Of a stretch of 55,384 nucleotides of DNA, positions 28,525-48,412 are shown piece after piece. The stretch comes from Clostridia bacterium (GTDB lineage Bacteria > Bacillota > Clostridia > Christensenellales > Aristaeellaceae), in assembly GCA_017470945.1 (NCBI GenBank), contig JAFUXH010000019.1, forward strand, positions 1-55,384, in the 5' to 3' direction. Position 1 is the stretch's first letter; each line of letters opens with the position of its first letter. Made by a program: the position numbers and the translations under genes. The notes under the pieces were generated by a model. The model ran no database searches, had not been told where the DNA came from, and saw nothing but the letters and a program-made list of their open reading frames with translations.

Positions 28525-28614
28525 AGGCAGCTCCTTTCCGTATCGCATGGTGAGAATGGTTCCATACGATGATTCATTCGCTTTTTTTTGAAAAAATCCT
28601 GTAAAAAACGGTTT

Positions 28615-29724: not shown

Positions 29725-29748
29725 GGAATGCTCCTTTCTCCGGATCGC

Positions 29749-31811: not shown

Positions 31812-31820
31812 ACCGCTTCC

Positions 31821-32828
31821 TCACTCCGCCAGGCGCTCGAATTGTTCCGGCCTGTAATAAAGCACCTGGCTGCCGCCCTCCTCAAAGGAAAAGGGGATCT
31901 GCATCAGGCTGTCCAGGGCCTGCCGCACGGCGGCCTGCTTTTCCGGCCGCACGTAAAACACCAGGAAGCCCCCGCTGCCGGCCCCCAGCAGCTTGCCGCC
32001 CAGGGCCCCGGCGGCCATCGCCCGGGCGTACATCTCGTCGATGCTGCCGTTGCTGACGCTGGCGGCGGTTTGCCGCTTCATGCGCCAGGTTTCATCCAGC
32101 AGGAGCCCGAAATCATCCAGGCTGCGGGCGGGATCGGTCAGGATCTCCTCGCCCTGATCCACCAAGGCGCGCATGGCGCGCAGCAGGGCCGTTTTCCCGC
32201 GGGGGTTTTCCAACGCGCATTGGGCCTGCACCTGGCTGGACAGACGGGTGAAGCCGGTGAAAAACAGCATCAGATGCTCGTTCAACTGCTTTTTCCGCTC
32301 CGGGGCGATGATCACCGGGCGGACGGAATAGCCCTCGGGGCCGAAATCGATGCGGTTCATCCCGCCGAAGGCGGCGGCGATCTGATCCTGCCAGCCGCCG
32401 GCCTCGCCGCACAGCGTCCGCTCCAGGTAAATGGCGTCGTCCGCCAGCCGCCGTTGATCGACGTGCTTTCCCTTCAGGGCGTAAAAGGCGTTCAGCATGC
32501 CCACGGCGAAGGCGCTGCTGGTGCCCAGGCCCGAACGGGCGGGCAGGTCGGCGTCGTAGGTCAATCGAAGCTCCTGCATATCCAGCATCTGCATGGCGTT
32601 GCGGATCAGGGGATGCTCGATCTCCCGCACCTGCCGCACCCTTTCGGTGCGGGCGTAGATCAATTCCGAGGAATAGGAAAAGAACCGGGGCAGGTGGCGC
32701 ACCTCCACATAGCAGTATTTGTCGATGGTGGTGGATAATACGGCCCCGCCGTAGCGGCGGAAATGGGCCTCCATATCGGTTCCCCCGCCGAAAAAGGACA
32801 TTCTGAACGGCGTTTGCGTAATGATCAT
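31821..32828 (-). CDS. hddA: GHMP-family sugar kinase, heptose-7-phosphate kinase-like
   Basis: A 335-residue kinase resembling D-glycero-alpha-D-manno-heptose-7-phosphate 1-kinase (HddA). It opens IITQTPFRMSFFGGGTDMEA; the GHMP ATP loop is DLPARSGLGTSSAFAVG, GEAGGWQDQIAAAFGG is the sugar/phosphate motif, and GKLLGAGSGGFLVFY is the C-terminal glycine loop. It lies 9 nt before the HddC/GmhB fusion. The isomerase GmhA, which makes the substrate from sedoheptulose-7-P, is not in this window. Confidence 0.88.
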   Translation of the reverse strand: MIITQTPFRMSFFGGGTDMEAHFRRYGGAVLSTTIDKYCYVEVRHLPRFFSYSSELIYARTERVRQVREIEHPLIRNAMQMLDMQELRLTYDADLPARSGLGTSSAFAVGMLNAFYALKGKHVDQRRLADDAIYLERTLCGEAGGWQDQIAAAFGGMNRIDFGPEGYSVRPVIIAPERKKQLNEHLMLFFTGFTRLSSQVQAQCALENPRGKTALLRAMRALVDQGEEILTDPARSLDDFGLLLDETWRMKRQTAASVSNGSIDEMYARAMAAGALGGKLLGAGSGGFLVFYVRPEKQAAVRQALDSLMQIPFSFEEGGSQVLYYRPEQFERLAE

Positions 32829-32851
32829 GCTTCAATATCCCTCCATAGGAT

Positions 32852-35563
32852 CTAATATAAGGATAAGATTTCTGTGATCACCAGGCCCGAAAACTGCACG
32901 CCCACCCCCGCCGTCTGGCCGTTCAGGCCGGCGCACAATTGCAGGGCAGCCTCCCCCTGGCCGACGATGGTATCCGGGATGGTCAGCACCCAGGAAAACG
33001 GGGCGGGATCGCCGGCGACGGGCCAGGTTCGATCCATCAGGTCCTTCCCCGTGCGGTCGGAATGCAGCTTGACGGTGATGCCTTCGGCGCTGCCGGCGGT
33101 GATTTTTTGCCCTTGGATCGTTACCCGGTAGGTGTGGCCTGGCAGCAGGGCGGCGGGCACCACGGCGCAGTGATAGGGATCATTGTTGGGCTCCACGTCC
33201 CACCGGGCCCGGGCGTACACGATGTCGCCATCCGCCGCCTCGGGCCATTGATGAACGGACAGGCGGGTGAAGGCTACGCCCTTGTTCTGCGCTTCGCCCG
33301 CCCAGCCGGCGTACAGCAGCAATTGGGTGTCCCGGGCGATGTTTTCTCCGCGGGGGAGGGTGAAGGTCCATTCGAAGTCGCCCTCGTTCTCCGTCCGGGG
33401 CAAATACCAGTTGGTGCGGGCCAGGTAGCCGCCCTGCGAAGGATTGTACAGGGCCAGCGTCAGGCCTCGCAAAGGTTCCGCGGTGGCCGTCACGTCGGCG
33501 GCCCGCACGGTGTAGGTGCGCCCGGGCTGGAAGGCGACGGGCACGGAATAGGCGTGATAGGCGTTGCCGCTGGGCGGCAGAAGCACCTGAGCCTGCTGGA
33601 AAATCTCCGTCCCGCAGGCGTCCGATACCTCCCAGATCACCGGGCGCAGCACCCGCAGGGAAGCGGCCTGATCCCCTTCCGCGGAAAATTGCACCCGGCA
33701 GCCCGCGGCGCCTTCCGGCACGGTGAATCGCCACGCCTTCCCGCCGTCTGTCCCGACGGGCCAATGGGCGTAGTACACGCCGGCGTGGGCTTCCACGTCG
33801 TACAGCGATACCGTCAGGGAGGGGACGAGCGCAGCGTCGCCTTCGATCCCCTCGGCGGTGACGCAGTAGGCTTTCCCCGGCGTCAGGGCGGCGGGCAGGC
33901 GGGCGCTGCGGAAATGATCCTCCCCGGTCAGGGCCGCGTCATCCTGGGCGTACAGGGCCGTCAGGCCGCTGCGGGGGTATTCCTCCGTCAGGCGCATGGA
34001 TCGCCACGTGACGCCCACGCCGTCCGCCTGGCCGCTGATGCCGGCGTACAGCCGAAATTCCAGGGGCTGGGGCGCGGCGGCGGGAGGCAGGGAGAAAACC
34101 CAGGTGAGGCTATCGGCGGCGCTTTGATCGTTCAGCGGCCACAGCTTGCGCAGCAGGAAGGTTTCGCCGTCCGGGGCGTAGATCCCGGCCATCAGGGCGG
34201 CGGGCCGCCCCTGGTCCGCCCGGGCGCTGCCGATGGTCAGGGTATAGCGCCGCCCCGATGTCAGCGCGACGGGCAGGCGGAAGGAATGATAGGGGTTCTC
34301 CTCCGGAGCCAAAGCGATCTCGTCGGCTTCATACAGGGAAACAACGTTGGTGTCCGCCCGGCGGTTTTCCTGCCAGGCCCCGCAGCCGAAGGTGAAGAAA
34401 TCCGCCGTGCCCAGGGTGCTGGGGTTGAGCATCAGCACCGCCGCGTCGGGGCGGAGGGCGTCGGCCAGCGCCATGATGCTGCCGTCGGCGTAGTAGCGGG
34501 GGTCCACCGCCTCGATGCGGGCAAACACCGTGTGCAGGTAAGCCAGCACCGGCACGGAAAAGCTGTCCTTGAGGAACAGCAGGGTCTTTTGCACGGGGGC
34601 GTTTTCGTTGATCAATTCCATCACCGGGTAATCCCCGCCATAGTACACGAAGTAATTGTTCAGGCGGAAATAATCGATTTCCTCCAGGTATTGGGGCCAG
34701 ATACAGGCCTCCTCGAAGCCGCCCCGGCGGATCTCCTGGTGATGGGGGATCAGGGTGGTCAGGCGGGTTGCAAAGGCGGGGGTGTAGTAGATCAGGTCGT
34801 CCACCCCGGCGTAGTGCACGCCCACCCGCTTGCCCTGGCTGCCCAGAAAAGCGCCCGGCACCGTGTGCCGCACCCACCGGGCGGCCGCGGCGTTGGTTGG
34901 ATCGACGCCGCCGGGTATCAGGCCGTTCAGGGCTTTCACGATGGCCTGGAAGCCCACGAAGGCCCCGTCGGCGGTCCAGTGGTGGTCGGTGCGGTAAAAA
35001 TACTGATCCACCTGGTCCGCCGTGGCGCTGATGGAGGGCCGCAGATCCAGGGCCTTCACCCCGGCGTTTTGCAGCAGGGAAAGCAATTGATCGGCGTTTT
35101 CGTTGCTGAAATCCTGGGCGTGGGCGGGCAGGAGCGATTTGTCCAGGCTCATTTTGCCCGGGGCCTGCACAAATAAAAGCGGTATATTCAGGGTGCGCAG
35201 GGCGTCGTCGAATTCCGCCACGGCGCGGGCGTGGTCGGTCAGATCCCAGGAATTTTCGAATTCGTTCAGCATGCCGTTGGTCATACGGCTGACGCGGTTG
35301 CATTCTTCCCGCCCCGTCCACCGGGCGAACAGTCCGTTCAGGTTGACGAAGGCGTTTTTGCCCCACAGGTCGTCGGATTGCAGGGCGGCGGCGATGCGAT
35401 CGTTAATGCCGTTCAGAAAGACTCCGTCCCGGGTGACGGCGGCGCGCAAAAGGGCGTGGGGCAGGCGGATGTTGGCAACGCACAGCGTCAGCAGCACCGC
35501 GCAGGCGGCCAGGGCGGGCAGGCAGGCCAGCCCATGCCGGGCGTTCAAGCCGTGCTTTTTCAA
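32852..35563 (-). CDS. AlgX/DltD-like SGNH acyl-transfer protein with four C-terminal beta-domains
   Basis: A 903-residue membrane-anchored extracellular protein. An N-terminal helix (about 13-32) is followed by an SGNH-hydrolase-like domain to about 400: TDHHWTADGAF (His/Asp of the triad, about 193-196) and LFLKDSFSVPVL (Ser334). It fits AlgJ/AlgX/DltD partners of MBOAT acyltransferases. About 415-903 holds four repeats of about 125 residues, each with a line such as RLPVALTSGRRYTLTI, RLPAALTPGKAYCVT, SVPVAFQPGRTYTVRA or VVPAALLPGHTYRVTI; they look like jelly-roll carbohydrate-binding domains. The start is TTG 35563 with AAAGGAGG. It follows the MBOAT gene by 31 nt. Confidence 0.85.
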   Translation of the reverse strand: MKKHGLNARHGLACLPALAACAVLLTLCVANIRLPHALLRAAVTRDGVFLNGINDRIAAALQSDDLWGKNAFVNLNGLFARWTGREECNRVSRMTNGMLNEFENSWDLTDHARAVAEFDDALRTLNIPLLFVQAPGKMSLDKSLLPAHAQDFSNENADQLLSLLQNAGVKALDLRPSISATADQVDQYFYRTDHHWTADGAFVGFQAIVKALNGLIPGGVDPTNAAAARWVRHTVPGAFLGSQGKRVGVHYAGVDDLIYYTPAFATRLTTLIPHHQEIRRGGFEEACIWPQYLEEIDYFRLNNYFVYYGGDYPVMELINENAPVQKTLLFLKDSFSVPVLAYLHTVFARIEAVDPRYYADGSIMALADALRPDAAVLMLNPSTLGTADFFTFGCGAWQENRRADTNVVSLYEADEIALAPEENPYHSFRLPVALTSGRRYTLTIGSARADQGRPAALMAGIYAPDGETFLLRKLWPLNDQSAADSLTWVFSLPPAAAPQPLEFRLYAGISGQADGVGVTWRSMRLTEEYPRSGLTALYAQDDAALTGEDHFRSARLPAALTPGKAYCVTAEGIEGDAALVPSLTVSLYDVEAHAGVYYAHWPVGTDGGKAWRFTVPEGAAGCRVQFSAEGDQAASLRVLRPVIWEVSDACGTEIFQQAQVLLPPSGNAYHAYSVPVAFQPGRTYTVRAADVTATAEPLRGLTLALYNPSQGGYLARTNWYLPRTENEGDFEWTFTLPRGENIARDTQLLLYAGWAGEAQNKGVAFTRLSVHQWPEAADGDIVYARARWDVEPNNDPYHCAVVPAALLPGHTYRVTIQGQKITAGSAEGITVKLHSDRTGKDLMDRTWPVAGDPAPFSWVLTIPDTIVGQGEAALQLCAGLNGQTAGVGVQFSGLVITEILSLY

Positions 35564-35594
35564 TGGGTGCCTCCTTTCCGCGATTTAACGGTCG

Positions 35595-37019
35595 TCAGAA
35601 ATTGAAGTAAATGAAGGGGTTGTGGGCGTTCATGACCAGGCAAGAGATGCTGACCAGGAACAGGAATAGCTGCGCCGCGCCTCCGATCCAGGCGACGACG
35701 GCGCTTTGGACCCCGCCTCCGGCGGTCAAGCGCTTGCCCAGGCGGGACAGAAGCGGGGTGGCGCCTACGATGCCCGCCGCCCAGAAAACGCGGTATTCCC
35801 ACAGGGCGTGGAGCAGGCGGCCATCCGCCGCCATGCCGCCCGGGGAAAACATGCTTTGCAGGTAGGAGAGGGCGTGAGGCAGGCTGTCGGCGTTGAACAG
35901 CACCCAGCCCAGCACCACCGTAAGCATGGTGAACAGGCGATAGGCGAGCCGGAAGGGCAAGGGCCATCCGCCGATGCGGCGAGGGATGTTCAGCAGCTTT
36001 TCCCCGATGATCAGCACGCCGTACATCAGGCCCCACATGAGGAAGGTCCAGTTGGCCCCGTGCCAGATGCCCGTCAGGCACCAGACGATCAGCAGGTTGC
36101 GGATCAGCTTCCCTTTGCCCACCCGGGAGCCGCCCAGCGGGAAATACACGTAATCCCGGAACCAGCTGCCCAGGGAAATGTGCCACCTGCGCCAGAATTC
36201 GGTAACGGTGCGGGAAGCGTAAGGGTGATCGAAATTCTCCATGAAGTGGAAGCCGAACATCCGGCCCAGGCCGATGGCCATATCGGAATAGCCGCTGAAA
36301 TCGAAATAGATCTGCAGGGTAAAGGCCAGGGCCCCGGCCCACGCCATCCCGGCGCTCAGGGAAGTGGCGGCGAACGCCTCCCCGGCGATTTCGGAAAACA
36401 CGTTGGACAGCAGCACCTTTTTGTTGAACCCCAGCATGAACCGCGTCAGCCCCCGGCAAAACCCTTTTAGGGAAACGCCGCGGTGTTCGATTTCCCGGCG
36501 CACGGCGGCGTAGCGCACGATGGGGCCGGCGATCAATTGGGGGAAAAAGCAGATGTAGAGGCTGAATTGAACGATGCTTTTCTGGGCGGGCTCGCCCCGG
36601 TACACGTCGATCACGTAGCTGACGGCCTGAAAGGTGAAAAAGGAAATGCCGATGGGCAGGGCGATGTGAGTCTGCGGCAGGAAGCCTTGGGCAAAGGGCA
36701 GCCAGCCCCGCAGGACGCTCAGCAGGAAATTCAGGTATTTGAACACCAGCAGCAGCCCGATATTGACGCTGACGGCGCAAACCAGCCAGAAGCGCTTTTT
36801 TCGCCCCTCTCTCTTTTCCATCGCCCGGGCGAACAGGTAATTCAGCCCGATGGACAACAGCATCACCAGCACGAACGTGGGCTCGCCCCAGGCGTAGAAG
36901 AACAGGCTGGCCATCAGCAGCCACACGTTCCACGCGTCCTCATCCCGGGGCAAAAGGAAGTAGACCGCCGTCGTAATGGGCAGGAACAGGATCAGAAATT
37001 CCAGGCTTGTAAACAGCAT
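35595..37019 (-). CDS. MBOAT O-acyltransferase (AlgI/DltB/PatA family)
   Basis: A 474-residue polytopic enzyme that carries acyl groups across the membrane to a polysaccharide. Signatures are LPIGISFFTFQAVSYVIDVY, FPQLIAGPIVRY, IYFDFSGYSDMAIGLGRMFG, EFWRRWHISLGSWFRDYVY, PLGGSR and the catalytic-His motif TGIWHGANWTFLMWG. All these are hallmark AlgI elements. The AlgX/DltD-like gene follows. The acylated polymer is presumably the product of this operon, an inference from position. Confidence 0.94.
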   Translation of the reverse strand: MLFTSLEFLILFLPITTAVYFLLPRDEDAWNVWLLMASLFFYAWGEPTFVLVMLLSIGLNYLFARAMEKREGRKKRFWLVCAVSVNIGLLLVFKYLNFLLSVLRGWLPFAQGFLPQTHIALPIGISFFTFQAVSYVIDVYRGEPAQKSIVQFSLYICFFPQLIAGPIVRYAAVRREIEHRGVSLKGFCRGLTRFMLGFNKKVLLSNVFSEIAGEAFAATSLSAGMAWAGALAFTLQIYFDFSGYSDMAIGLGRMFGFHFMENFDHPYASRTVTEFWRRWHISLGSWFRDYVYFPLGGSRVGKGKLIRNLLIVWCLTGIWHGANWTFLMWGLMYGVLIIGEKLLNIPRRIGGWPLPFRLAYRLFTMLTVVLGWVLFNADSLPHALSYLQSMFSPGGMAADGRLLHALWEYRVFWAAGIVGATPLLSRLGKRLTAGGGVQSAVVAWIGGAAQLFLFLVSISCLVMNAHNPFIYFNF

Positions 37020-37040
37020 GGGCGCATTCCTTCCCGGGCG

Positions 37041-38177
37041 TCAGGCCCGATCCCATTCCAGGAAACGAACGCACTCGTACAGCCGGGCGCTCAGGGTTTC
37101 CGGATCGGCGGTATGGCGGCGGAAGGCGTGGGCTTCCGGGTCGAAGGTGAGGCGCAGCTGGGTATCCAACAGCTTCATGGCCTCCGCCTCCTCCTTCGCG
37201 CCGCCGAAGGCCCGGGCGATCAAGGGGGCTTCAAAGCCCGGGGCATTGTAGCCGTAGGCGTAGGGATTCATGCTTTCTGGGGCGTCGGCGCCCAGGCGGC
37301 GGTTCAGGGCGCTTGCGTCCCCTAAGCCGTAGCGCAGCGCTTTTTGAAATTTTGCGGTGCGGAACAGGGGAATATCCCGCCCCAGCGAGGCCATCACCGC
37401 GTAGCCGTACAGCTCGAACAGGTGATACCCCTCCTCCTGGATCAGGATATCGTGCCGCCGGCTGCTGAACAAGCCGGTTTTCAGCCCCGCGTATTTCACG
37501 TACTGCCGGGCGTACAGCCCAAGGAACGCCCGGCGCGGCCGCTTCATGGCCCCGAAGTGGCGGATCAGGCCGCTGCGGTGCGCGCCGAAAAATTCCTTTT
37601 CCAGGCGGTTCAGGTGCCGGTCGACCTGATGCTGGATATCGGCGTCCCGCCGGCATTGCAGCAGCATCAGCCCCGCCAGGCAGAACCACACCTGGTGGTT
37701 CAGAGTGAAATCGTAGGAAAGCGGCGTGCCGTCCACATCCACCCGCCGCCACAGGCCGGTGCTTTCGTCGAACCGCTGGGCGCGGAAAATGCGGAAGGCG
37801 CATTGCAGATACGCCTCATTTTCGAAGGCCCGCCAGGCGTAGGTCAGCGCCTCGATGGCCCAGGCCTGGCCGATCAGGCCGTTCAGGCGGTCGGCTGCCC
37901 CATCCTCCATGCAGGGGATCGCGCCGGAGGGGCTGCTTTCCTGCATGGCCATGAGGTACCGGGCCATGCGCTGGGCCAGGGCCTTGTAGCTTTCCTGCCC
38001 CGTACGCTTCCACAAAAAGGCGTAGATGATCAGCCAGTGGCCGGTGTTGCGCACCGGGTTATCGGGGCTGCCGTAGGGGCCGTTGCGCCCCGGCAGGGCG
38101 CGGCCCAGCGGTGCAAAGACGGGAGCATGGGCGTCGGCGCAGGATTGTACCAGGGAAAAAAGGGCTTCGGTGTTCAT
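37041..38177 (-). CDS. AglQ-like alpha/alpha-toroid protein of polysaccharide clusters
   Basis: A 378-residue protein without signal peptide. Its repeated aromatic-rich helices (GHWLIIYAFLWKRTGQESYK, GQAWAIEALTYAWRAF, LNHQVWFCLAGLMLL, GYHLFELYGYAVMASLG) are those of a six-hairpin (alpha/alpha-barrel) glycosidase-like fold, and it resembles the proteins named AglQ in glycan clusters. No catalytic pair can be assigned, so it may be a lyase, an epimerase-like enzyme or a binding protein. Its start overlaps the stop of its operon neighbour at 38174 (ATGA), in the middle of the transferase genes. Confidence 0.6.
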   Translation of the reverse strand: MNTEALFSLVQSCADAHAPVFAPLGRALPGRNGPYGSPDNPVRNTGHWLIIYAFLWKRTGQESYKALAQRMARYLMAMQESSPSGAIPCMEDGAADRLNGLIGQAWAIEALTYAWRAFENEAYLQCAFRIFRAQRFDESTGLWRRVDVDGTPLSYDFTLNHQVWFCLAGLMLLQCRRDADIQHQVDRHLNRLEKEFFGAHRSGLIRHFGAMKRPRRAFLGLYARQYVKYAGLKTGLFSSRRHDILIQEEGYHLFELYGYAVMASLGRDIPLFRTAKFQKALRYGLGDASALNRRLGADAPESMNPYAYGYNAPGFEAPLIARAFGGAKEEAEAMKLLDTQLRLTFDPEAHAFRRHTADPETLSARLYECVRFLEWDRA

Positions 38178-39301
38178 GGCGTTCCGGCCTTTCTGTAGGC
38201 TTCCGCCGTTTTCCGGGCGGATTCATTCCAGCTGTACCGTTCGCTGACCAGGCGGCGGATGTGCTGCCGATAGCGGTCGATTTGCTTTTCGTCCCATTGC
38301 ACGGCGGCCAGGATGGCGTCCCGCAATGCGGCGGGATCCTCGGGGGCGAACAGCAGGCCCGTCTGTCCCCCATCCGTTTCCTCCCGGAAGGTGGGGATAT
38401 CGCTGGCAATCACCGGCACGCCGTAGGTGTAGGCCATCAGCAGCGCGCCGCTGCCGTAGATTTTCCGGTAGGGAAACACGGCGATATCGGCGTCTCCCAG
38501 CAGGGCGGGGATCTCCTCGTCCGGCACCCGCTGGGCGGAAAAGCACACGCAGTCCCCAATGCCGTACTGCCGGATCAGGGCGGGGTAATCGGTGGGGTCG
38601 ATCTTAGGGTATTGCTTGCCCCGGATGGTGAACAGGCATTTGCTTCGCGTTTCTTCATCCAGGAGCGAGATGGCCTTGAGCAGGATATCGATCCCCTTGT
38701 AGGGACGGATGCGGCCGAACAGCAAAAAGCGCGTCCGCCCCGCCTCCGCCCGGCGGGGCTTATCGAGAGCGTAGGTCTGGTAAGCGCCGTGGGCGATGAC
38801 GGCGATTTTTTCATCGGGAATGGCAAACAGCCGCTGCAATTCCCGCTTGGAGGCCTCGTTGTGCACGATCAGCAGATCGCACCGGCGGTAAAACGCGCCG
38901 TACAGCGCCTGATCCCCGGGCGCGGGCTCGTGGGGCAGCACGTTGTGCACCGTCATGACGAGCTGACGGACATACCGGCGCAGGGCGGCGTACAGCTTCA
39001 TTTCCACCGCCGCGTTTTTGAAGCTTTGAATGTGCAGCACGTCGAACCGGCCCTTCCGGATCAGCCGCCCAAGCCGCAGCAGCGTGCGCCCGTAGGCCAG
39101 GATGGAGCCGATTTTCCCCTTGCCGCCGGGGTAAAACTGGGGCAGCCAGGTCATCCCCGGCTCCGACAGGCGGGTATCGGCCTTGCAGAACACCGTGATG
39201 TCGCAGTCCCGCTTCAATTGCCGCCCCAATTCCAGCACGTACAGGCTGCCGGGGGAGTGATGCTCCACCATCAGCACCCGGATTTTTCGCTCGTTTTCCA
39301 T
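38174..39301 (-). CDS. Family 4 glycosyltransferase
   Basis: A 375-residue GT-B enzyme. The N-terminal domain opens IRVLMVEHHSPGSLYVLELG and has DVLHIQSFKNAAVEMKLYAA. The donor-binding domain has RFLLFGRIRPYKGIDILLKAI, FTIRGKQYP and the acidic motif region PYRKIYGSGALLMAYTYGVP with VIASDIPTFRE. It would add a sugar to the lipid-linked repeat unit in the cytoplasm. It follows the flippase gene by 18 nt and overlaps the AglQ-like gene. Confidence 0.92.
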   Translation of the reverse strand: MENERKIRVLMVEHHSPGSLYVLELGRQLKRDCDITVFCKADTRLSEPGMTWLPQFYPGGKGKIGSILAYGRTLLRLGRLIRKGRFDVLHIQSFKNAAVEMKLYAALRRYVRQLVMTVHNVLPHEPAPGDQALYGAFYRRCDLLIVHNEASKRELQRLFAIPDEKIAVIAHGAYQTYALDKPRRAEAGRTRFLLFGRIRPYKGIDILLKAISLLDEETRSKCLFTIRGKQYPKIDPTDYPALIRQYGIGDCVCFSAQRVPDEEIPALLGDADIAVFPYRKIYGSGALLMAYTYGVPVIASDIPTFREETDGGQTGLLFAPEDPAALRDAILAAVQWDEKQIDRYRQHIRRLVSERYSWNESARKTAEAYRKAGTP

Positions 39302-39319
39302 CGCGTTTTTCCTTTCTTT

Positions 39320-40867
39320 TTACGCGGTCTTTTTCTTCAGCAGGCCCATCAGCCGGTTCCGCTGCTTTTTGTTGCAGGCGATCAGCAGGTGCAGCGGCGC
39401 GCCGATCAGGGCGTACGCCGCCGCGCAGGCAATCAGCCCCGCCCAGCTGCCGGGGGTGTACAGCGCCGCCAGCAGCTGGAACGCCGCCGTCAGCGCCCCG
39501 CAGGCCAGCACGTTGCGCAGGATGTCGGGGTAAAAGGTGGCGGGGGGCAATTGCAGCACGTGGGCCATGTACAAAGGGTTGGTGACGAAATTGATCACCG
39601 CCATCACCGCCACTGTGGTCCACGCCACGGCGTATACCCCCATGCCGGCGTACCGGATCAGCACGTACATGCCGATCACGTTCACGATCCCTCCGGCCAC
39701 CGTCACGTAGCAGGGGATTTTTTTCTTCACCGTCAGGGTGTAGATGTAATACAGGGGGTGCACCGCCCCGTTGGGGATGCAGGTGAGGATGGTGACCACC
39801 GTCAGCCGGTAAATCAGATCGATATCCTGGCCGGGGATCCACAGCCGGTAATAGGCCGGGCCCAGGGCCACGAAGCCGGCGAAGGTCACGTTGGCCAGCA
39901 GGCCCGAGGCCTTCATGGAGATTTTCAATTCATCCAGCAGCCCTTCCCGGTCGCCCGCCGCGTAGCGCTGGAGGAAGCGGGGGATGAAGGCCTGATCCAC
40001 CACCGTGTACAGGCTGTGGATGATGGTGTGCATGGTTTTGGCGATGGCCAGCTGGCCCATGGCCAGGGAGGTGAGCAATTGGTTGCACACCAGCAGGTCC
40101 AGCCCATTGTTCAACAGATCGCCCACCAGGTTGAAGGATTGCCAGAACCCGTCGACCACCAGCCGCCGCACGGCGGCGATGGAAAAATCCCGCCGCCTGG
40201 GGGTCAGCTGGGGCAGCAGGCGGCGGCTGAGCCATCCGTCGGATACCGCCACGATCAGCGCCGCGGCCAGGGCGCCCAGGCCCACGTAGCACACCCGGGC
40301 GGGGAAAAGCAGGTAAGCGATCAGCAGCACCAGGGCGTTGGTCACGTAGGACAGGGTCTTGAACAGGCCGGTCAGGTCCATCCGGTCCTGAATATAGCCG
40401 GCGCAGCCGAACACCGAGCACACCGTGGTGACCCAGAAGCTGACGCCGGTGAACAGGAACAGCATTTTCACGTCGGTCACGATGGCCCCGGGGATCGAAA
40501 GGACGCGCTGCAGAAAGGGCAGCGCGACGGCCGTCAGCCCCAGGATGAGGCAGGCCAGCGCCAGATCGCCGAAAAACACGGAGGAAAAATACACGTTGGC
40601 CTGCTTCGTGTCATTTTGGTGATAGCACAGGCCGATGTACCGGGCGGCGTAGGTGTTCAGCGCGGTGGTCAGGATGGCGGCGTATTGGGAAAACTGCTTG
40701 GCCAGCGTCACGAAGCCGTAGGCCTCCGTGCCCACGGTGCGGGTGATATAGGGGGTCAGCAGCAGGGTGATGCCGTAGTTGACCGCGTAGGCGACCCCCG
40801 TCGCCAGCATGGTGCGCAGCACGTGCAGCAGCTTATTGTTCGCTTGAGGCTGATAAACCGATCGCAT
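39320..40867 (-). CDS. Wzx-like oligosaccharide flippase
   Basis: A 515-residue protein of the polysaccharide-exporter (MOP/Wzx) family with about 14 helices, expected to move undecaprenyl-linked repeat units outward. Features: LLHVLRTMLATGVAYAVNYG at the start, TEAYGFVTLAKQFSQYAAIL, a basic loop KKIPCYVTVAGG in the middle, and a short Lys-rich tail (CNKKQRNRLMGLLKKKTA). ATG 40867 lies 35 nt inside the end of the Wzy-like gene, so the two are translationally coupled. Confidence 0.92.
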   Translation of the reverse strand: MRSVYQPQANNKLLHVLRTMLATGVAYAVNYGITLLLTPYITRTVGTEAYGFVTLAKQFSQYAAILTTALNTYAARYIGLCYHQNDTKQANVYFSSVFFGDLALACLILGLTAVALPFLQRVLSIPGAIVTDVKMLFLFTGVSFWVTTVCSVFGCAGYIQDRMDLTGLFKTLSYVTNALVLLIAYLLFPARVCYVGLGALAAALIVAVSDGWLSRRLLPQLTPRRRDFSIAAVRRLVVDGFWQSFNLVGDLLNNGLDLLVCNQLLTSLAMGQLAIAKTMHTIIHSLYTVVDQAFIPRFLQRYAAGDREGLLDELKISMKASGLLANVTFAGFVALGPAYYRLWIPGQDIDLIYRLTVVTILTCIPNGAVHPLYYIYTLTVKKKIPCYVTVAGGIVNVIGMYVLIRYAGMGVYAVAWTTVAVMAVINFVTNPLYMAHVLQLPPATFYPDILRNVLACGALTAAFQLLAALYTPGSWAGLIACAAAYALIGAPLHLLIACNKKQRNRLMGLLKKKTA

Positions 40868-42164
40868 GGTCGTCCTTTCCTTCCGTTTCCTCCGCGGGGC
40901 GGAGAAAACGGGGCGCGTTTACGTCGTTGGTTCGATGCAGGCACAGGGCCATCACGAGGAAGAGGGCCACGGTTTTGAAATCGTAATTGCCGCCCAGGCA
41001 CCGCTCCGTCAGGCCGTTCACCGTCAGGTAGGCCATGATCACGCCGCAGAAGCGGTAGGCGTCCCGGTCCAGGCGGGATACGTCCCGGAAAGCGCGCAGC
41101 AGGGCAATGAAAAACAGGGCGAGCCCGATCAGCCCGCAGTTGGCCCACGTTTCCAGGATCACGTTGTGGGCCCCGGTGGTCATGGTGGCCATGAAGGAAT
41201 TTTTCCGCACGCTGAAGGCGGCGTGCACCAGGGCCACCGCCCCGCTGTCCCGCCAGAACATGCCGTAGCCGTAGCCGATCAGGGGGCGGTTGTAGGTCAT
41301 GACGGTGATGATCTGATTCCACAAAGGGATGCGGCCGGTCAGGGTGGCGTCCTTGCCCAGGGCCGCCAAAAAATCCTGCAAAAGGGGCATCAGGGTGAGG
41401 GTCAGCAGCAAAAAGACTCCGTTGATCACGATGTAGCCCAGCCCCAGGGGCAGGCGCACCCGATCGGGGAAAAACAGGGGGACGAAGGATATCAGCACGC
41501 ACAGCACCGCCCCCGTGGCCTGGCACATCAGCAGCAAAACGCCCTGGATCAGCAGCAGCGCCAGCCAGCGGCCCGCCGGCTGACGGCTTTTTTGCTTCTG
41601 CCGAAGCAGCAGGGCGGTGATCAGGATGCCGAAGGAAAGCTCGGTGGCGAAGGCGTTTTTGCTGGGGTACAGGCCCCGCAGGGCCCGCTGGTAGGTGGAG
41701 CCGCTCTCATAAGCCAGGGAGGCGTGCCGAAGCATGAAAATCAGCACGGCCGCCACGAACAGGCCCTGGGCGATGCCCATCAGATCCAGGATCTGATGCA
41801 GGGAATAATATTCTTGCAGCCAGATGACGAACAGGATCGTTACCAGCAGGCGGGCGCAGGTGATCGCCTGCTCCGCCGGGTAATGGGTGGCCAGCATGGA
41901 CATGAGGAAGGTGATCACCCCGTAGCAGTAGATCACGGCGTATTTTTTGTCCAGATGGAGCAATTGAATATCCTGCCAGCGGTCGGCGCTGGACAGAAGG
42001 ATCACCAGGATCTCGACCCCAAAGGCGGCGTATTCCAGCAATTTACCCAGCTTTTCCCCGTACACCAATTCGTAGTTGCCCGGGAAGCCCAGGGCAACCA
42101 ACAGGGAAAACACCACCATCACTTCGATGAAAACGCCCCGGTTTTCACCCCGATTTCGTTCCAT
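40833..42164 (-). CDS. Wzy/O-antigen-ligase-family polymerase
   Basis: A 443-residue membrane protein with about 11 helices and a large extracellular loop. The loop carries GRIPLWNQIITVMTYNRPLIGYGYGMFW ... TTGAHNVILETWANCGLIGL, the conserved Wzy_C/O-antigen-ligase pattern with the essential-type His. It would join repeat units on the outer face or transfer chains to an acceptor. The cytoplasmic C-terminal tail contains charged residues (RPAEETEGKDDH). It lies between the VanZ-like gene and the flippase. Confidence 0.9.
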   Translation of the reverse strand: MERNRGENRGVFIEVMVVFSLLVALGFPGNYELVYGEKLGKLLEYAAFGVEILVILLSSADRWQDIQLLHLDKKYAVIYCYGVITFLMSMLATHYPAEQAITCARLLVTILFVIWLQEYYSLHQILDLMGIAQGLFVAAVLIFMLRHASLAYESGSTYQRALRGLYPSKNAFATELSFGILITALLLRQKQKSRQPAGRWLALLLIQGVLLLMCQATGAVLCVLISFVPLFFPDRVRLPLGLGYIVINGVFLLLTLTLMPLLQDFLAALGKDATLTGRIPLWNQIITVMTYNRPLIGYGYGMFWRDSGAVALVHAAFSVRKNSFMATMTTGAHNVILETWANCGLIGLALFFIALLRAFRDVSRLDRDAYRFCGVIMAYLTVNGLTERCLGGNYDFKTVALFLVMALCLHRTNDVNAPRFLRPAEETEGKDDHAIGLSASSEQ

Positions 42165-42192: not shown

Positions 42193-42906
42193 TTATCCGT
42201 CGCCTGGCTGTCGGTTGGAGCCCGGCCCTTTGAACCAGCGCCGGTACAGCTTGAACGCCCCCAGCCCCAGGCAGGCCCCCACGGTGTTGGCCGCCAGATC
42301 CTCGATATCGCACTGGCCCAGCCGCAGGATCAATTGAACGGCCTCGATCAGGGCGGAGGTGAGCAGCCCCAGGGGGATGATATACCGCCATTTGCCCAGG
42401 CGCCGGGGCTGAATCAGGGGAAACAGCACCCCCAGGGGCAAAAACAGAACCACGTTCATGATCAGGTGCTCCAATGGCTGCAGGGAACGGCGGCGGATGG
42501 CCTCCGAAATGGAGTCAAAGCGCAGCAGGATCTCGGCGGCGCGCCGCTCCGAACGGGAGAAAACGGTGATGTAGCCCACCGCCAGCACGTACAGCAAAAA
42601 CAGCGCGGCCATGCCCTTGTTCGCTTCCCGGAAGTGCTTCCCGAAGTCGTAGACCATCAGGAACGCCCCCACGCACGCCGTCAGGATCAGCAGCGCCAGC
42701 AGGATGAAATCCACGCTGCCCAGGCGGCTGATGATCAGCACCAAAGGCCCGGCGATCAGCGCGTAAACGATCAGCAGCACCGCGGCGATCATGGGCAGGG
42801 CGCTGCGGCTGGCCGTTCTTTTGGCCACGGCCTGAAACAGGTAAAAATACCCGCACAGCAGCAGGATCCCGATCAGGATGAGCTGCATGGCGTTTTGGCT
42901 GCCCAT
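42193..42906 (-). CDS. VanZ-like membrane protein
   Basis: A 237-residue protein with about seven helices. The VanZ-like domain is in the second half: RSLQPLEHLIMNVVLFLPLGVLFPL, then LGLLTSALIEAVQLILRLGQCDIEDLAANTVGACLG, which is the family hallmark. VanZ-like proteins are linked to glycopeptide tolerance and to surface glycans, without a defined reaction. The start is 4 nt after the Wzz/BY-kinase stop, with AAAGGGATGA as ribosome site. Confidence 0.88.
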   Translation of the reverse strand: MGSQNAMQLILIGILLLCGYFYLFQAVAKRTASRSALPMIAAVLLIVYALIAGPLVLIISRLGSVDFILLALLILTACVGAFLMVYDFGKHFREANKGMAALFLLYVLAVGYITVFSRSERRAAEILLRFDSISEAIRRRSLQPLEHLIMNVVLFLPLGVLFPLIQPRRLGKWRYIIPLGLLTSALIEAVQLILRLGQCDIEDLAANTVGACLGLGAFKLYRRWFKGPGSNRQPGDG

Positions 42907-42910
42907 GGGC

Positions 42911-44689
42911 TCATCCCTTTCCGCCGCGTTTTTTGTCCTTGCCTTTGGCCGGCTTTTCTTTTTCTGTTTCTTTCTCGTTCTCTTTTGCCTTTGCCTTTTC
43001 CCGGGGAGGCGCGGGGGCCTCGGCCTCGGGCGGCGTTTCAGCGCCGCTGTTGTCCCAATCGCCGTCCACGCCGATCTTCAATAGGGCCGATACGGTTTCC
43101 TGGTCGGTCATGGGGGCTTCGATGGGGGCGTCGTTGATCAGATCCTCCAGGATGTTCCTGGGCGCGGCGGGGGCGGCTGCGGCAGGCGCGGATGCCCCGC
43201 CGTCCTGTTGCTTTTTCAGGCTGCTCATCAGCTCCTCGTGCTCGGCGGGGCCGCGATGGGCGGGGAAGGCCTCCTCCGCCGGGGCTTCCTTTTTCCGGCG
43301 CTTGCGGGGCTTTGCCTGGGCGCCCAGGCTGCCGCTGCGGCCGGACTGCACGCCGTTCACCACGCACCCCACCACCCGGATGCCGGATTTATCCAGCTTT
43401 TCCAGGGAGCTTTGGATTTCCGGCACCGTGGCGGTATCGTAGCCCACCACGTACAGCGCGTTGTTGGCCACCTGGTTCAGGCTCAGCGTTTCGCTGGCCA
43501 TGCTCACCGGGGCGGCGTCCAGGATCACGTATTCGTATCGCTCGCTCAGCCGCTCGATCAGCTCCACCACCGTGCCGTCCATGGGGATCACGTTGTGCTC
43601 CAGCACCGTGGGCAGAAGATCCAGGTAGCCCGTCAGGGTAGTGATGGCCTCCTCCTCGGTGGCGTCGCCCCGGTACAGGGCGTTCAGCGAGCGGGAGTAA
43701 TCGACCTTGTCCAGGAACAGAGCGCCCAGGCTGGGGTTGTGGGTGTCAAAATCGATCAGCAGCGTGCGGTGCTCCATATCGGATAATTGAATGGCCAGGT
43801 TGGCCGCCACGGTGGATTTGCCCTCCCGCGTGGTGGCCGACGTGACGAAGAAGCAATGGTGCTTTTCCTTGGTGCCCAGGCGGTTGCGCAGGATGTAAGC
43901 GGCGGCGGCGTAATTCTGCGCCACCTCGGAGGAGGAAGCGTCAGCGTCCACCAGGATGGAGGCGTGCTTGCGGAAAAAGGCGTCGTCCCGGGGAATGACC
44001 CCGATGGTTTCCAGGCCGAACAGGTTTTCCACGTCCTTGACGTTGTTCAGCGTGGGGTGCATCAGCAATTCGATCACCGCGAAGCCCACGCCGGCGAAGA
44101 AGCCCAGCGCCGCTAAGAACATCCACACGCTGCTGCTGGAGCCGCCCACGCCCACCAGCGCGGCCTCCGCCTCGTTGATCACCGCCAGGGAGCCCAATTG
44201 CAGCGTTTCCGGCAGCAGGCGGCTGGCGAAATCGACGACGGCGTTCCAGATGGCCACGCCCTCCTCGGCGTTGCGCCAGGTGAGGCGCATTTCAATGATC
44301 TGGGTGGCGTTGTACTGGCTGAGGGCCAGGCTGCCGCGCAGCTGGTCCACCGTGATGCCCAGCAGGCGCTGGTCGTTGATCACGCTGTTCATCACCCGGT
44401 CGCTGCGGATCACGTAGCGCACGGCGTCCATCATATCCTCGGCCAGGTGAAAGTCGTTGTTGTTGGCGCCGGAGGAGTTGTTGATGTACAGTCCGCTGGC
44501 GTTTTTGGTGGTGATGGCGAAGGAGCCGCTGACCTCGTAGCTTTGGAAGGAGGACTGCACGTACGTCATGGCGGACAGGATCAGCCCGAACATGAGGCCT
44601 ACGAACGTCAGTGCCACGATCACCTTCCAGCGCTTTTGCAGGGCGAAGAGCAAATCGCTCACCCGAATTTGGATCCCGCTGTTTCTCAT
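42911..44689 (-). CDS. Wzz chain-length regulator fused to a BY-kinase, with an unusual tail
   Basis: A 592-residue protein. Residues 1-210 are a Wzz-type module with helices at about 24-44 and 188-208. Residues about 260-450 are a bacterial tyrosine kinase: Walker A TSATTREGKST (about 284-293), Walker A' LLIDFDTHNP (about 310-319), Walker B YVILDAAPVS (about 387-396). One chain combining both is the Wzc-like form, seen here in a Gram-positive setting where CapA/CapB are often split. The last 120 residues are Pro/Ala/Glu/Lys-rich and contain no tyrosine, so the usual autophosphorylated Tyr cluster is missing. It starts 16 nt after the MotB-like gene. Confidence 0.9.
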   Translation of the reverse strand: MRNSGIQIRVSDLLFALQKRWKVIVALTFVGLMFGLILSAMTYVQSSFQSYEVSGSFAITTKNASGLYINNSSGANNNDFHLAEDMMDAVRYVIRSDRVMNSVINDQRLLGITVDQLRGSLALSQYNATQIIEMRLTWRNAEEGVAIWNAVVDFASRLLPETLQLGSLAVINEAEAALVGVGGSSSSVWMFLAALGFFAGVGFAVIELLMHPTLNNVKDVENLFGLETIGVIPRDDAFFRKHASILVDADASSSEVAQNYAAAAYILRNRLGTKEKHHCFFVTSATTREGKSTVAANLAIQLSDMEHRTLLIDFDTHNPSLGALFLDKVDYSRSLNALYRGDATEEEAITTLTGYLDLLPTVLEHNVIPMDGTVVELIERLSERYEYVILDAAPVSMASETLSLNQVANNALYVVGYDTATVPEIQSSLEKLDKSGIRVVGCVVNGVQSGRSGSLGAQAKPRKRRKKEAPAEEAFPAHRGPAEHEELMSSLKKQQDGGASAPAAAAPAAPRNILEDLINDAPIEAPMTDQETVSALLKIGVDGDWDNSGAETPPEAEAPAPPREKAKAKENEKETEKEKPAKGKDKKRGGKG

Positions 44690-44705: not shown

Positions 44706-46442
44706 TTAGCCTCGGGCTTTTCTGCGTTTCCGGATCACCAGGATCAGGGCGGCGGCCGCCGCGAGCGCCGCTGCCGCCACCGCGCCGATGATGACGTAGC
44801 GCATCACATAGGTGGTATGGATGTTGATGGTTTGGATCTCCGCCTGATCCCGCACGGAGATGGGATAACGGCTGTCCTCCTCGCCGTCCTTGATCAGGAA
44901 ATAGCTGCCGGGCTTTAAATCGGTGAAGGACTGCGGGCTGCCGGTGGTGGTCCAGGCGCGGATCAGGGCGCCATCCTCGCTGTACAGGGCCAGGCTGACC
45001 CCCGGCACCTGCACGCTGCTGAATTCATCGGTGATGCCGACGGATACCCGGATCATCCGGTTGGTCAGGGCGATTTCGGTTTCCGTTTCGCCCCCGATGC
45101 GGCCGTCCGCCGTCACAGCCACGGTCTGCTCCGCCCGGGCGGGCTGGTACTGATCCGGCGCGCCGGTTTGCAGGATGTGGTACACCGTGGCTTTTTCGAT
45201 CGTATCGAGGATCAAACTGCCGGTGCTGTCGGTGACCGCCTCGGCAAAGGCCGGGCTGACGCCGCCCTCCCACCGCACGGTAAAGGCCGCGCCCTCGACG
45301 CCCCGGGTGGGGTATAGCTCGTCGGCCACCGTCAGGCGGATCTTGGTGCGCTGGCTGGCGATCCACTGCAGGGGCGGCTCCACGGAGGATTTTTTGCTCA
45401 CCTCCACCGCCACCTCGTCGGGATAGCTGGCGTAGTACGCCGGGATCTCTTTTTGCCGCAGCACGTAGCGGCCCAGGTAAATTTCCTCGCTGACGCCGTA
45501 GCCATCCTCGCCGCAGCGGATTTCAGTCACGGTCTGCCCCGCCCGGTAGCGCAGGGTGCCGTCGGCGGTGACGATATTTTCGTCGGCCACTACCTCAAAG
45601 CTGCCCCCCGCCACCGCAAGGCCCGTTTCCGCGTCGGTCATCTGCACGCGGATCACGTTGCGGGAGGGATACACCGGCACCCGCACCACGTAGGGGTCGG
45701 GCCAGTCGTAGGCCTGGTCCAGCAGGAAGGGCTGGTTGGGGGCGGCGTCGTACCCCGCGGGCTCGGTGAGCTCGTGCAGGATGTACGCCCCTTCCAGCAG
45801 CTTTTCCGGGAAATAGAACGCGCCGGATTCGGTGGTCACGTAGGAGCGGAAGGTGATCCGCTCGGGGTAGTAGGTGTTCAGGATTTGCAGCGCGCCGTTT
45901 TCTTCATACAGCTCGAATTCCACGTTTGCTTCCTTGATGGTGCGGTCGGTTTCCGCGTCCACCAGCATCACGAACACGGCGGATTTCAGCCCGGCGTCCG
46001 GCTGATCCCCGGGGCCTTCGCCCTGGCCGTTGCCGCCGCCTTCTCCCCCGCCGCCCCCCGCGGCGCCGCCGCCCGGCAGGTCCGGGGTGGGCGAGGGCGT
46101 GGGCGTATAGGTGGGGGAAGCAGAGGGGGTGTGATCCGGCAGGATCACGGGGGTCTGCCGGCCCCGGCCGTCCCCGCCGCCGCCATCCCCGCCGCCGTCG
46201 TCGTCGCCGTCGGTCCAGAAGAAGGCGGTGGGCAGGGGGGAAGCGCCGCCGGATTCATTGTCGCCGCCGCCCAGGGCGTCCCCGTAGTAGGGGTCGATCT
46301 CGCTGTTTTCCGGGATATGCACCAGGTACAGGCCCAGCAGCAGGATCACCAGCATCAGCACCAGCAGCAGGGCGCTGAGCAGGTCCGACGCGGGCTGCCA
46401 GAAATTCAGGCTCTCGTCGCCGCGCTTTTTCCGCTTGTTCAT
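44706..46442 (-). CDS. MotB/ExbD-type transmembrane protein carrying SpaA/prealbumin-like extracellular domains
   Basis: About 578 residues. The N-terminus reads KKRGDESLNFWQPASDLLSA and continues as a Leu-rich helix to about residue 41. This is the MotB/ExbD/ZorB-type plug helix, and Asp20 is in the position of the ion-binding Asp. A Gly/Asp/Pro-rich stretch (about 55-150) follows, then four prealbumin/SpaA-like beta-domains (for example VDAETDRTIKEANVEFELYE, TDAETGLAVAGGSFEV, VPGVSLALYSEDGALI). A second helix near the end (YVIIGAVAAAALAAAAALIL) has a basic tail, so both ends are anchored. There is no OmpA peptidoglycan-binding domain and no LPXTG. Its start overlaps the stop of the MotA-EAL gene. 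Confidence 0.78.
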   Translation of the reverse strand: MNKRKKRGDESLNFWQPASDLLSALLLVLMLVILLLGLYLVHIPENSEIDPYYGDALGGGDNESGGASPLPTAFFWTDGDDDGGGDGGGGDGRGRQTPVILPDHTPSASPTYTPTPSPTPDLPGGGAAGGGGGEGGGNGQGEGPGDQPDAGLKSAVFVMLVDAETDRTIKEANVEFELYEENGALQILNTYYPERITFRSYVTTESGAFYFPEKLLEGAYILHELTEPAGYDAAPNQPFLLDQAYDWPDPYVVRVPVYPSRNVIRVQMTDAETGLAVAGGSFEVVADENIVTADGTLRYRAGQTVTEIRCGEDGYGVSEEIYLGRYVLRQKEIPAYYASYPDEVAVEVSKKSSVEPPLQWIASQRTKIRLTVADELYPTRGVEGAAFTVRWEGGVSPAFAEAVTDSTGSLILDTIEKATVYHILQTGAPDQYQPARAEQTVAVTADGRIGGETETEIALTNRMIRVSVGITDEFSSVQVPGVSLALYSEDGALIRAWTTTGSPQSFTDLKPGSYFLIKDGEEDSRYPISVRDQAEIQTINIHTTYVMRYVIIGAVAAAALAAAAALILVIRKRRKARG

Positions 46443-48013
46443 CAAAGCTCATCCTCCGTCATCAGCGCCTCGAATTCCTTCAGCGACGCGGGCTTGGACA
46501 AGAAGAAGCCCTGGCCCTCGGCACAGCCGCACTTGCGCAGCATGGCCAGCTGCTCCATATTTTCGATGCCCTCCACGGCCAGGGTCAGGTGCAGCTTCCT
46601 GGCCTGGTCGAACACGTCGTTGAGGGCGCTTTGATTCTGGCTGCCGGCGAAGCGCCGCAGATCCAGCTTCAGCACGTCGGCCCCCATGTTTTCGACGGCG
46701 TTCAGGGCGATGTAATCCCCGTCGAAGCCGTCCACCACCACCCGGAAACCGGCCTGCCGCAGCTTTTCCTCCGTTTCGATCACGGCGCTGGCCGACTGCA
46801 GGTAGGCGTTTTCGGCGATCTCGATTTCCAGGCTCCGGGGCGGGATGCGGTATTTCTTGATCATATCGGCGAAGAAATCGGCGATATCCATGGCCAGGAT
46901 ATCGGTTTTCGTCACGTTGATGGACAGGGGCACCGGCCGCAGCCCCGCGTCGATCCAGCGGCGGATGGTGAGGCACACATGCTCCCAGATGTACTGATCC
47001 AGCTTGGTGATGTAGCCGTTGCTTTCCAGCACGGGAATGAACACCGCGGGGGACACGGTGCCCAATTTGCTGTGGTTCCAGCGCACCAGGGCCTCCGCCC
47101 CCACGATCTTGCGGGTGTTCAGGTCGAAACGGGACTGAAGATAAAACACGAATTCCCCATCGTGCAGGGCGGACAGGATCTGCGGCATCAAAATCTGCTC
47201 GTTGCCGCCGCCCACCGCCGGGGCCTGGCCGCCCAGGCTGCCGCCGGCCGCGGAGAAGCCGGCGTTTTTGGGCAGCCGCTCCAGCAGCTCCGTGATCTGC
47301 CGGATCTCCTTGCGCTCCCGGTAGCGGATCTGCTCCTCGGCGGAGGGGATGACGTTTTTGTGGAATTCCTCGGTAAAAATGCCCAGGCTGCGGATCATCA
47401 TGTTCCAGGCGATGCGGTACATGATGTTGAACAGCAGCGATAATATTACCCCGGCGATGGAGGTGTAGAAGGCGATTTGGATGCCGCCGAGCAGCGTTTG
47501 CACGCTGGAAAGGGCGGCGTTGACGGTGGTGAAGCCGATGCCCCGGATGCCGATGATCAGGCCGATGAAGGTGCCCAGGATGCCAAGGCCCGTCAGCGTG
47601 CCGGGCAATTGCTGGATCACGCTTTGCCAGCTGTGCAGGGCCAGCACGTCCTCGTTGATGTATTCATCCACGTCGCTGAGCACCTGCCCCGCCTCCCGCT
47701 GGGCGGTCACCTTGTCGCGGTAATCGTGAAACAGGGCGTTCAGGGTGGACTGCTGGAAAAAATCCTCCGTCTGCGCCAGGGCCGCCCAGGCGGACCCGGC
47801 CTGCGCCTCCGTCACCCGCTCGATGCTCTCCAGGCCGTTTTGCAACCCCCGGTAATACTGGATCACCGGCAGCACCCCGAAGCCCACGCCCAGGAACAGC
47901 AGCACCTCCATCAGCACGATGAACACCGTGGATACCTCGTCCGGCGCGTAGGCCGTCAGCAGGATGCCCCCGATGAGGATGAAGAGGATGAACACATACA
48001 TAAATCTGCGCAT
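46442..48013 (-). CDS. MotA/TolQ/ExbB-type channel subunit fused to an EAL domain
   Basis: 523 residues. Four helices at about 4-21, 29-51, 136-158 and 178-200 enclose the family motif LPGTLTGLGILGTFIGLIIG, as in MotA/TolQ/ExbB/ZorA proton-channel proteins. The cytoplasmic loop lies between helices 2 and 3. After a Gly-rich linker (about 255-272) comes a c-di-GMP phosphodiesterase-type EAL domain: GAEALVRW (307-311), SINVTKTDI, LEIEIAENA, VLKLDLRR, VEGIEN and EGQGFFLSKP. The paired Asp motif DDFG reads DGFD (428-431), so activity may be lost or reduced. ATG 48013 follows GGAAAGGG. First gene of the polysaccharide operon. Confidence 0.88.
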   Translation of the reverse strand: MRRFMYVFILFILIGGILLTAYAPDEVSTVFIVLMEVLLFLGVGFGVLPVIQYYRGLQNGLESIERVTEAQAGSAWAALAQTEDFFQQSTLNALFHDYRDKVTAQREAGQVLSDVDEYINEDVLALHSWQSVIQQLPGTLTGLGILGTFIGLIIGIRGIGFTTVNAALSSVQTLLGGIQIAFYTSIAGVILSLLFNIMYRIAWNMMIRSLGIFTEEFHKNVIPSAEEQIRYRERKEIRQITELLERLPKNAGFSAAGGSLGGQAPAVGGGNEQILMPQILSALHDGEFVFYLQSRFDLNTRKIVGAEALVRWNHSKLGTVSPAVFIPVLESNGYITKLDQYIWEHVCLTIRRWIDAGLRPVPLSINVTKTDILAMDIADFFADMIKKYRIPPRSLEIEIAENAYLQSASAVIETEEKLRQAGFRVVVDGFDGDYIALNAVENMGADVLKLDLRRFAGSQNQSALNDVFDQARKLHLTLAVEGIENMEQLAMLRKCGCAEGQGFFLSKPASLKEFEALMTEDEL

Positions 48014-48383: not shown

Positions 48384-48412
48384 ATTGTAGCATAATGTGT
48401 CGAAATTCGCAA
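48384..48412 (-). promoter_or_regulatory. Candidate promoter of the motor/polysaccharide operon
   Basis: TTGCGA (48407-48412), 17 bp and TACAAT (48384-48389) on the minus strand. No better candidate was seen closer to the start codon. The divergent region 48413-48638 shows no gene. Confidence 0.55.

Follow-up and report, generated by a model that had tools for sequence, protein, structure and literature searches.

The window analysed here is a stretch of 55,384 nucleotides from a draft genome of a Clostridia bacterium (contig JAFUXH010000019.1), and the subject of this report is a pair of overlapping minus-strand genes, A and B, at 44706..48013. A first-pass annotation made from the letters alone had described them as a rebuilt ion-driven motor, pairing a four-helix MotA/TolQ/ExbB-like subunit that carries an EAL domain with a MotB-like subunit that carries SpaA domains, and had linked them to cyclic diguanosine monophosphate (c-di-GMP) and to polysaccharide export. 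The gene arrangement was recovered as described: the stop codon of A and the ATG of B overlap (TGATG), and the B start at 46442 makes the predicted motor aspartate residue 20. The two genes and their parts are as follows.

46442..48013, minus strand: gene A, MotA/ExbB-type channel subunit with a fused EAL domain, 523 amino acids (aa), ATG at 48013
47411..47713, minus strand: MotA_ExbB domain of A, residues 101-201, with transmembrane helices 3 and 4 (TM3-TM4) and the polar residues Thr148 and Ser185
46490..47179, minus strand: EAL domain of A, residues 279-508, with DDFG changed to DGFD and the remaining key residues checked kept
44706..46442, minus strand: gene B, MotB/ZorB-type N-terminal helix, SpaA domains and C-terminal membrane anchor, 578 aa, ATG at 46442
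46383..46385, minus strand: codon of B Asp20, the predicted ion-binding Asp
44886..45989, minus strand: SpaA (prealbumin-like) region of B, limits approximate (Pfam)
44739..44795, minus strand: C-terminal transmembrane helix of B, followed by a basic tail (hydropathy)

To place the pair among its relatives, 84,980 species genomes were queried with two conserved peptides. The scan uncovered 55 loci, comprising 39 that span both domains of A, 13 with the EAL part only, and three N-terminal fragments; at least 39 full-length loci is a lower bound because only two peptides were used, and one further locus, L097, was missed and found later. The 39 loci derive from Christensenellaceae, Oscillospiraceae, Lachnospiraceae, Clostridiaceae, and unplaced Clostridia, with named isolates such as Faecalibacterium longum CLA-AA-H243 and Brotaphodocola catenula, although the set contains several near-copies and six of its contigs are those of the six relatives found separately. 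In all 39, an open reading frame with a B-like N-terminal helix follows A at a gap of -19 to +69 bases (gene calls in the relatives being mechanical), so the expectation that the two genes would stay together in other genomes holds. Distances among A and among B proteins correlate at 0.91 (703 pairs, 38 loci), a value we give little weight because joint inheritance of the operon explains it. The system is patchy and rare: the full-length fusion occurs in 7 of 29 genomes of the window's genus and in 7 of 31 genomes of the genus of F. longum, and the system in 5 of 150 genomes sampled from the family, 2 of 391 from the class, and 1 of 398 from the phylum, with the window's own genome included in all of these except the F. 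longum genus and being the only one in the phylum sample. No relatives were found on viral contigs.

Gene A matches the Pfam domains MotA_ExbB (PF01618; 31.1 bits against a cut-off of 22.9) and EAL (PF00563; E 1.6e-53, 182 bits), and hydropathy predicts four transmembrane helices, confirming the proposed four-helix subunit with its EAL domain; the channel-family profile match, whose absence had been named in advance as counting against the assignment, is present at residues 101-201. Both domains were matched by all 32 aligned A proteins, the window's included (MotA_ExbB at E<=0.01), and under the same hydropathy threshold four transmembrane helices were predicted in 30 of the 39 relatives, three in seven, and two in two. 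ZorA models match A with values up to E 1.6e-18. A profile built from 21 A channel parts returned seven PDB matches at E<=1, six to ZorA (8VVN, E 1.1e-17; 8QYD, E 2.3e-13; 8VVI, E 1.1e-7) and one to MotA (6YSL, E 0.55), and in these profile comparisons no described protein comes closer to the A channel part than ZorA. Thr148 and Ser185 are each kept in 40/40 MotA-EAL sequences and align, with positions counted by hand, with Thr147 and Ser184 of ZorA, which we take to be the residues making the Ser/Thr ring. In ZorAB, a Ser/Thr ring surrounds the Asp of the B subunit (PMC11890865).

The assignment of B as a partner of this channel found mixed support. The window's B has no Pfam match to MotB, ExbD, or OmpA at E<=1, and neither MotB nor ExbD is among the 17 Pfam families matched by any of 32 B members (E<=0.01). 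ZorB models touch residues 4-43 weakly (best E 3e-4), and a profile of 24 B N-termini found 13 PDB sequences at E<=5, the top three being the B subunits of ZorAB (8VVI, E 2e-5; 8VVN, E 8e-5; 8QYD, E 1.3e-4; next, E 0.25), which align with the B N-termini on the same Trp and Asp. The MotB-type helix with Asp20 is therefore supported by the family profile and the ZorB models, and not by the Pfam MotB and ExbD families. Asp20 itself is present in 38 of the 39 relatives; counting the window, this makes 39/40.

Beyond the helix, B contains a clear SpaA match (E 8.2e-23), with four stretches at E<=1 and three at E<=0.01. SpaA is matched by each of the 32 aligned B proteins, whereas an OmpA-type peptidoglycan-binding domain occurs in none of them, in agreement with the missing OmpA domain noted earlier. 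Hydropathy places one transmembrane helix at each end of the window's B, which bears out the second membrane anchor, and predicts two helices in all 38 complete B proteins, near both ends in 37; in the remaining one (L075) the second helix lies further in because of a long C-terminal tail. We considered and rejected a sortase-anchored B: neither the 70 C-terminal residues of the window's B nor the 250 C-terminal residues of any of the 39 relatives, one of which (L041) is shortened by a contig end, contain an LPxTG-like motif. Given a transmembrane helix at each end and no LPxTG-like motif, B is probably a membrane hairpin carrying its SpaA domains outside.

The genes downstream of the pair, all on the same strand, connect it to polysaccharide synthesis.

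42911..44689, minus strand: third gene, chain-length-determinant and bacterial tyrosine kinase (BY-kinase)-like ATPase (Pfam AAA_31 and CbiA over cut-off)
42193..42906, minus strand: VanZ-family membrane protein (Pfam)
40833..42164, minus strand: Wzy_C/O-antigen ligase family protein (Pfam, over cut-off)
27538..40867, minus strand: remaining presumed polysaccharide cluster of flippase-, glycosyltransferase-, and acyltransferase-like genes (labelled by eye)

The third gene also matches Wzz and NCBIfam polysaccharide kinase models, below their cut-offs, and a chain-length/BY-kinase gene stands together with a Wzy polymerase gene in the window, as in Wzx/Wzy-type operons. Among the relatives, a next open reading frame of at least 300 aa follows in 36 of 39, while the other three run out on short contigs; all 22 third genes scanned of these 36 match AAA_31 and CbiA, and four match Wzz (E<=0.001). 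Of 52 mixed neighbour proteins taken from the relatives, 10 match VanZ and four match Wzy_C. The window operon and the neighbours of its relatives thus support the proposed link to polysaccharide genes, and because B adjoins A in 39/39 and the third gene is a BY-kinase-like ATPase in 22/22, the pairing is more than chance.

Since the A channel part resembles ZorA more closely than any other described protein, we asked whether the locus might be a Zorya-type phage defence system, which we regard as very improbable. A stays below the cut-offs of the NCBIfam models for ZorA (59.4 bits at best, where 100 are needed), B does not have the peptidoglycan domain of ZorB, the window's downstream genes are polysaccharide genes, and the third gene is conserved in the relatives. 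On the missed cut-off and the absent ZorB domain, membership in Zorya was rejected. ZorC, ZorD, and ZorE were not among the three downstream genes in a Pfam scan, the neighbours not being scanned with defence models.

The EAL domain may act either as an enzyme or as a receptor, and we compared its key residues in 40 MotA-EAL sequences with those in 33 other EAL sequences from the relatives, a comparator set that still counts one visibly misaligned sequence (L093). The E of the EAL motif and the domain's N are each kept in 40/40 MotA-EAL sequences and 33/33 of the others, the K in 39/40 and 32/33, the E of EGxE in 36/40 and 32/33, and the first Asp of DDFG in 39/40 and 32/33. The second Asp of DDFG, in contrast, is found in 0/40 MotA-EAL sequences versus 31/33 of the others, and the family therefore does not carry the DDFGTG loop with two metal-binding Asp that marks active EAL phosphodiesterases. 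Both Asp of this motif coordinate catalytic metals, the second binding M2 in active EAL domains (PMC5301497). FimX, which does not have the motif, is called an inactive phosphodiesterase there yet was crystallised with pGpG (PMC5301497), and LapD, with a changed loop, is described as a c-di-GMP receptor (PMC3032553).

A working phosphodiesterase that lowers c-di-GMP locally at the polysaccharide machine, with the MotA/MotB part anchoring or tuning it, would account for the well-kept E, N, K, and EGxE residues. We nevertheless consider this improbable, as it leaves aside the rewritten loop around the missing second Asp and the channel ion-path residues, which are strictly kept and would be needless for a mere anchor. 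With the second metal-binding Asp absent in 40/40, the EAL domain of the family is probably a c-di-GMP receptor rather than a working phosphodiesterase, and c-di-GMP therefore more likely acts on it as a ligand. LapD and FimX resemble it in having an EAL domain that has lost its catalytic loop and is nucleotide-binding, LapD being a membrane receptor (PMC3032553, PMC5301497), but A contains no HAMP or GGDEF partner domain, and its EAL partner is an ion channel or motor.

A second connection to c-di-GMP comes from the DNA upstream of A. Thirty-five loci (34 of the 39, plus L097) were scanned against Rfam, and a c-di-GMP-I riboswitch was found upstream of A on the same strand in eight of them (L062, L063, L064, L070, L072, L074, L076, and L077), ending 56-148 bases before the A start, with the A start codons of L076 and L077 uncertain and the L076 match barely over its gathering score (35.9 vs 35). 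At all eight loci a terminator-like hairpin begins at the aptamer 3' end, followed by at least five T in seven loci and by a T-rich stretch in L076. In the seven aptamer alignments examined, the closing strand of the aptamer lies, with all four of its bases, within the 5' arm of the hairpin; in L076 both alternative pairings change together (AAUU). Aptamer and predicted hairpin together have the layout of an ON switch, through which the ligand would turn the operon on. Mapped on the tree, riboswitch presence needs four changes, at least three of them forced by well-supported branches. Further c-di-GMP-I riboswitches lie in front of other genes within 6 kb of the operon (L063 263-350, L064 438-534, L076 3016-3109, and L077 3061-3152), and L049 contains a lysine riboswitch at 3044-3211, on the opposite strand and upstream of the operon.

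GGDEF matches were found in 24/24 carrier genomes (corresponding to 24 of the 39 loci; 1 to 47 each) and in six other carriers of the window's genus (10 to 48 each), one of which is also among the 24. The genome of L097 has seven, and that of L079 one weak partial match. When ten upstream proteins were viewed singly, two loci, L059 and L070, had a GGDEF gene as the immediate upstream neighbour of A, and in L077 a response regulator with an HD domain occupies this position; a third GGDEF protein was tallied among the relatives' neighbour proteins. The riboswitches support the c-di-GMP link first proposed from the window, although some observations, set out below, speak against a strict need for the messenger.

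Taken together, these observations suggest, at about even chances, that A and B together build an ion-driven, MotA/ExbB/ZorA-like membrane machine of 5:2 type that is gated by c-di-GMP and serves exopolysaccharide assembly. Two B helices would be ringed by five A subunits, and H+ or Na+ would pass between B Asp20 and the ring of A Thr148 and Ser185. The EAL domains beneath the ring would bind, and no longer cleave, c-di-GMP, thereby switching the channel or motor, such that the fused EAL would be a built-in counterpart of YcgR, which acts on MotA from outside. With B held in the membrane at both ends and its SpaA domains outside, movement of A against B would drive or gate the Wzz/BY-kinase to Wzy line or else shift the growing polymer; in some members of the family, the riboswitch would let c-di-GMP switch on the operon as well. 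The homologies, the conservation, the operon, the residue losses, and the riboswitch matches were observed; that the subunits assemble 5:2, conduct ions, rotate, and bind the ligand, which way control runs, and what the target is, we infer.

Several observations weigh against such a c-di-GMP-gated motor. The window has no Rfam match at gathering scores, with no match in 47900-48800 even at E<=1, and no riboswitch was found upstream of A in 27 of the 35 loci. The window's genome, 95% complete, has no GGDEF match and no other EAL match. Several pocket residues are lost in two carriers: the EAL of L079 keeps E and N, with K, the first Asp, and others lost, and in L097, which is outside the 40 sequences counted and was read by eye, E, N, and K are all lost. 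Both retain the channel residues of A and the B Asp. The absence of a peptidoglycan-binding domain puts in question what B would be supported by when pushing. Lastly, at L061 5643-8866 the B motor Asp is lost (FWQPASALFSAL), with Ala in its place. There, similarity to the relative L053 is 0.77 over TM3-TM4 and 0.82 over EAL, whereas the other 12 pairs compared show the reverse; with its channel core seemingly relaxed and its EAL better kept, L061 is perhaps a natural motor-dead version, or perhaps an assembly error.

The missing GGDEF genes and the decayed pockets would fit a pair that, in the window's organism, is c-di-GMP-independent or left over, its EAL domain being a structural base or binding something else. 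We hold this to have little probability: the window's EAL retains the key residues of the family and is more similar to that of its nearest relative, L046 (83% identity), than is the channel part (71%), and every other carrier tested has at least one GGDEF match. The idea that pocket decay is confined to genomes devoid of GGDEF was tried and failed on the seven GGDEF matches of the L097 genome.

Because the draft genome of the window carries an estimated 8.4% contamination, we also evaluated whether the contig is foreign to it. Three genomes of the same genus that do not have the fusion (G001, G002, and G010) likewise have no GGDEF match. The genome has a single copy of GlmM, encoded on this same contig (23628-24977), and its closest matches are those in G002 (86%) and G001 (83%), followed by G018 (83%) and G020 (82%), both outside the GGDEF test; G003 and G009 gave no GlmM match. 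For the gene at 48780-50735 the best matches reach 49-50%; they lie in G018 and four carriers (G011, G006, G003, and G026) and favour no clear side. With GlmM single-copy and nearest to the GGDEF-free G002 and G001, contamination is less likely as the cause of the missing GGDEF genes. Another contig of this genome, C86 (L002 1135-3196), encodes a second MotA/ZorA-like protein, extended by a long coiled-coil-like tail, and behind it a MotB-like protein whose helix precedes a coiled-coil-like stretch, the coiled coils being judged by eye and from Pfam matches. The window also encodes a repeat-rich protein (50898-53372): Lys/Ala/Pro-rich repeats come first, and then a Glu-rich unit of 13 residues (39-base period) recurs about 21 times.

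The anchoring of B bears on how the pair might work. B is seemingly fixed only in the membrane, and so A would turn against two membrane posts, or else the pair would be a gate or sensor. A rather unlikely alternative is an outside-in sensor, in which the SpaA domains of B feel the wall or polymer, B shifts within the ring, ions flow, and the cytoplasmic EAL domain reports to the polysaccharide kinase, the pair being gate and sensor and not a power source. Such a sensor would suit a B anchored at both ends that contains no peptidoglycan-binding domain, and an EAL fold that is still fused where its pocket residues are lost; ZorAB, moreover, has been proposed as a sensor (PMC11890865). Alone, it leaves the c-di-GMP riboswitches and the adjacent GGDEF genes unexplained.

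Of the known systems nearest to the pair, ZorAB (8QYD, 8VVN, 8VVI) has the same channel Thr/Ser positions, the same Trp and Asp in the B helix, and a cytoplasmic extension on its channel subunit; unlike A and B, however, it has a helical rod in place of EAL and a peptidoglycan-binding domain in place of SpaA and the second anchor, and Zorya has nuclease partners downstream where polysaccharide genes stand here. The receptor domain of YcgR is PilZ. In the flagellar brake formed by MotAB and YcgR, an ion-driven pair is likewise reached by c-di-GMP at its channel subunit (PMC10140304). Here, by contrast, the channel subunit itself includes the putative receptor, which is an EAL domain. The AglRQS-Nfs system of Myxococcus differs in being Gram-negative and multi-protein, and we know of no EAL or SpaA parts in it. 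It is similar in that a motor sensitive to carbonyl cyanide m-chlorophenylhydrazone (CCCP) moves surface polysaccharide, the Agl motor being described as moving spore-coat glycan (PMC3858216). Generic ion transporters of the MotA family, whose A subunits bear added N- and C-terminal domains, have been described as a group (PMC12505986); the main text of that paper, on MotAB evolution, contains no occurrence of EAL, c-di-GMP, SpaA, or polysaccharide, nor does a review of 5:2 motors contain EAL, c-di-GMP, or polysaccharide.

A full-text literature search, which took in few subscription papers and no bioRxiv preprints, found no report of a MotA-EAL/MotB-SpaA pair, and 'ExbB proton channel' and 'EAL domain' were not found together among the best-ranked papers. 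Ion-driven 5:2 motors serve swimming, gliding, import, envelope upkeep, and phage defence. In the literature searched we found none tied to polysaccharide synthesis in single-membrane bacteria or carrying its own c-di-GMP receptor. We tentatively propose, as a possibility that falls short of an even chance, that the pair represents a new class of ion-driven machine. This would be a 5:2-type motor that carries its own second-messenger receptor and whose axle is tethered in the membrane instead of the cell wall. It would power or steer the growth or export of exopolysaccharide chains in gut bacteria with a single membrane, and in some members of the family c-di-GMP would activate it at two levels, through the riboswitch and on the motor. 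Carriers include members of Faecalibacterium, Blautia, and rumen Christensenellaceae, and the pair would offer a compact two-gene system for studying how a second messenger gates an ion-driven motor. If the proposal is true, exopolysaccharide secretion by some gut Clostridia would be an energised and signal-gated process.

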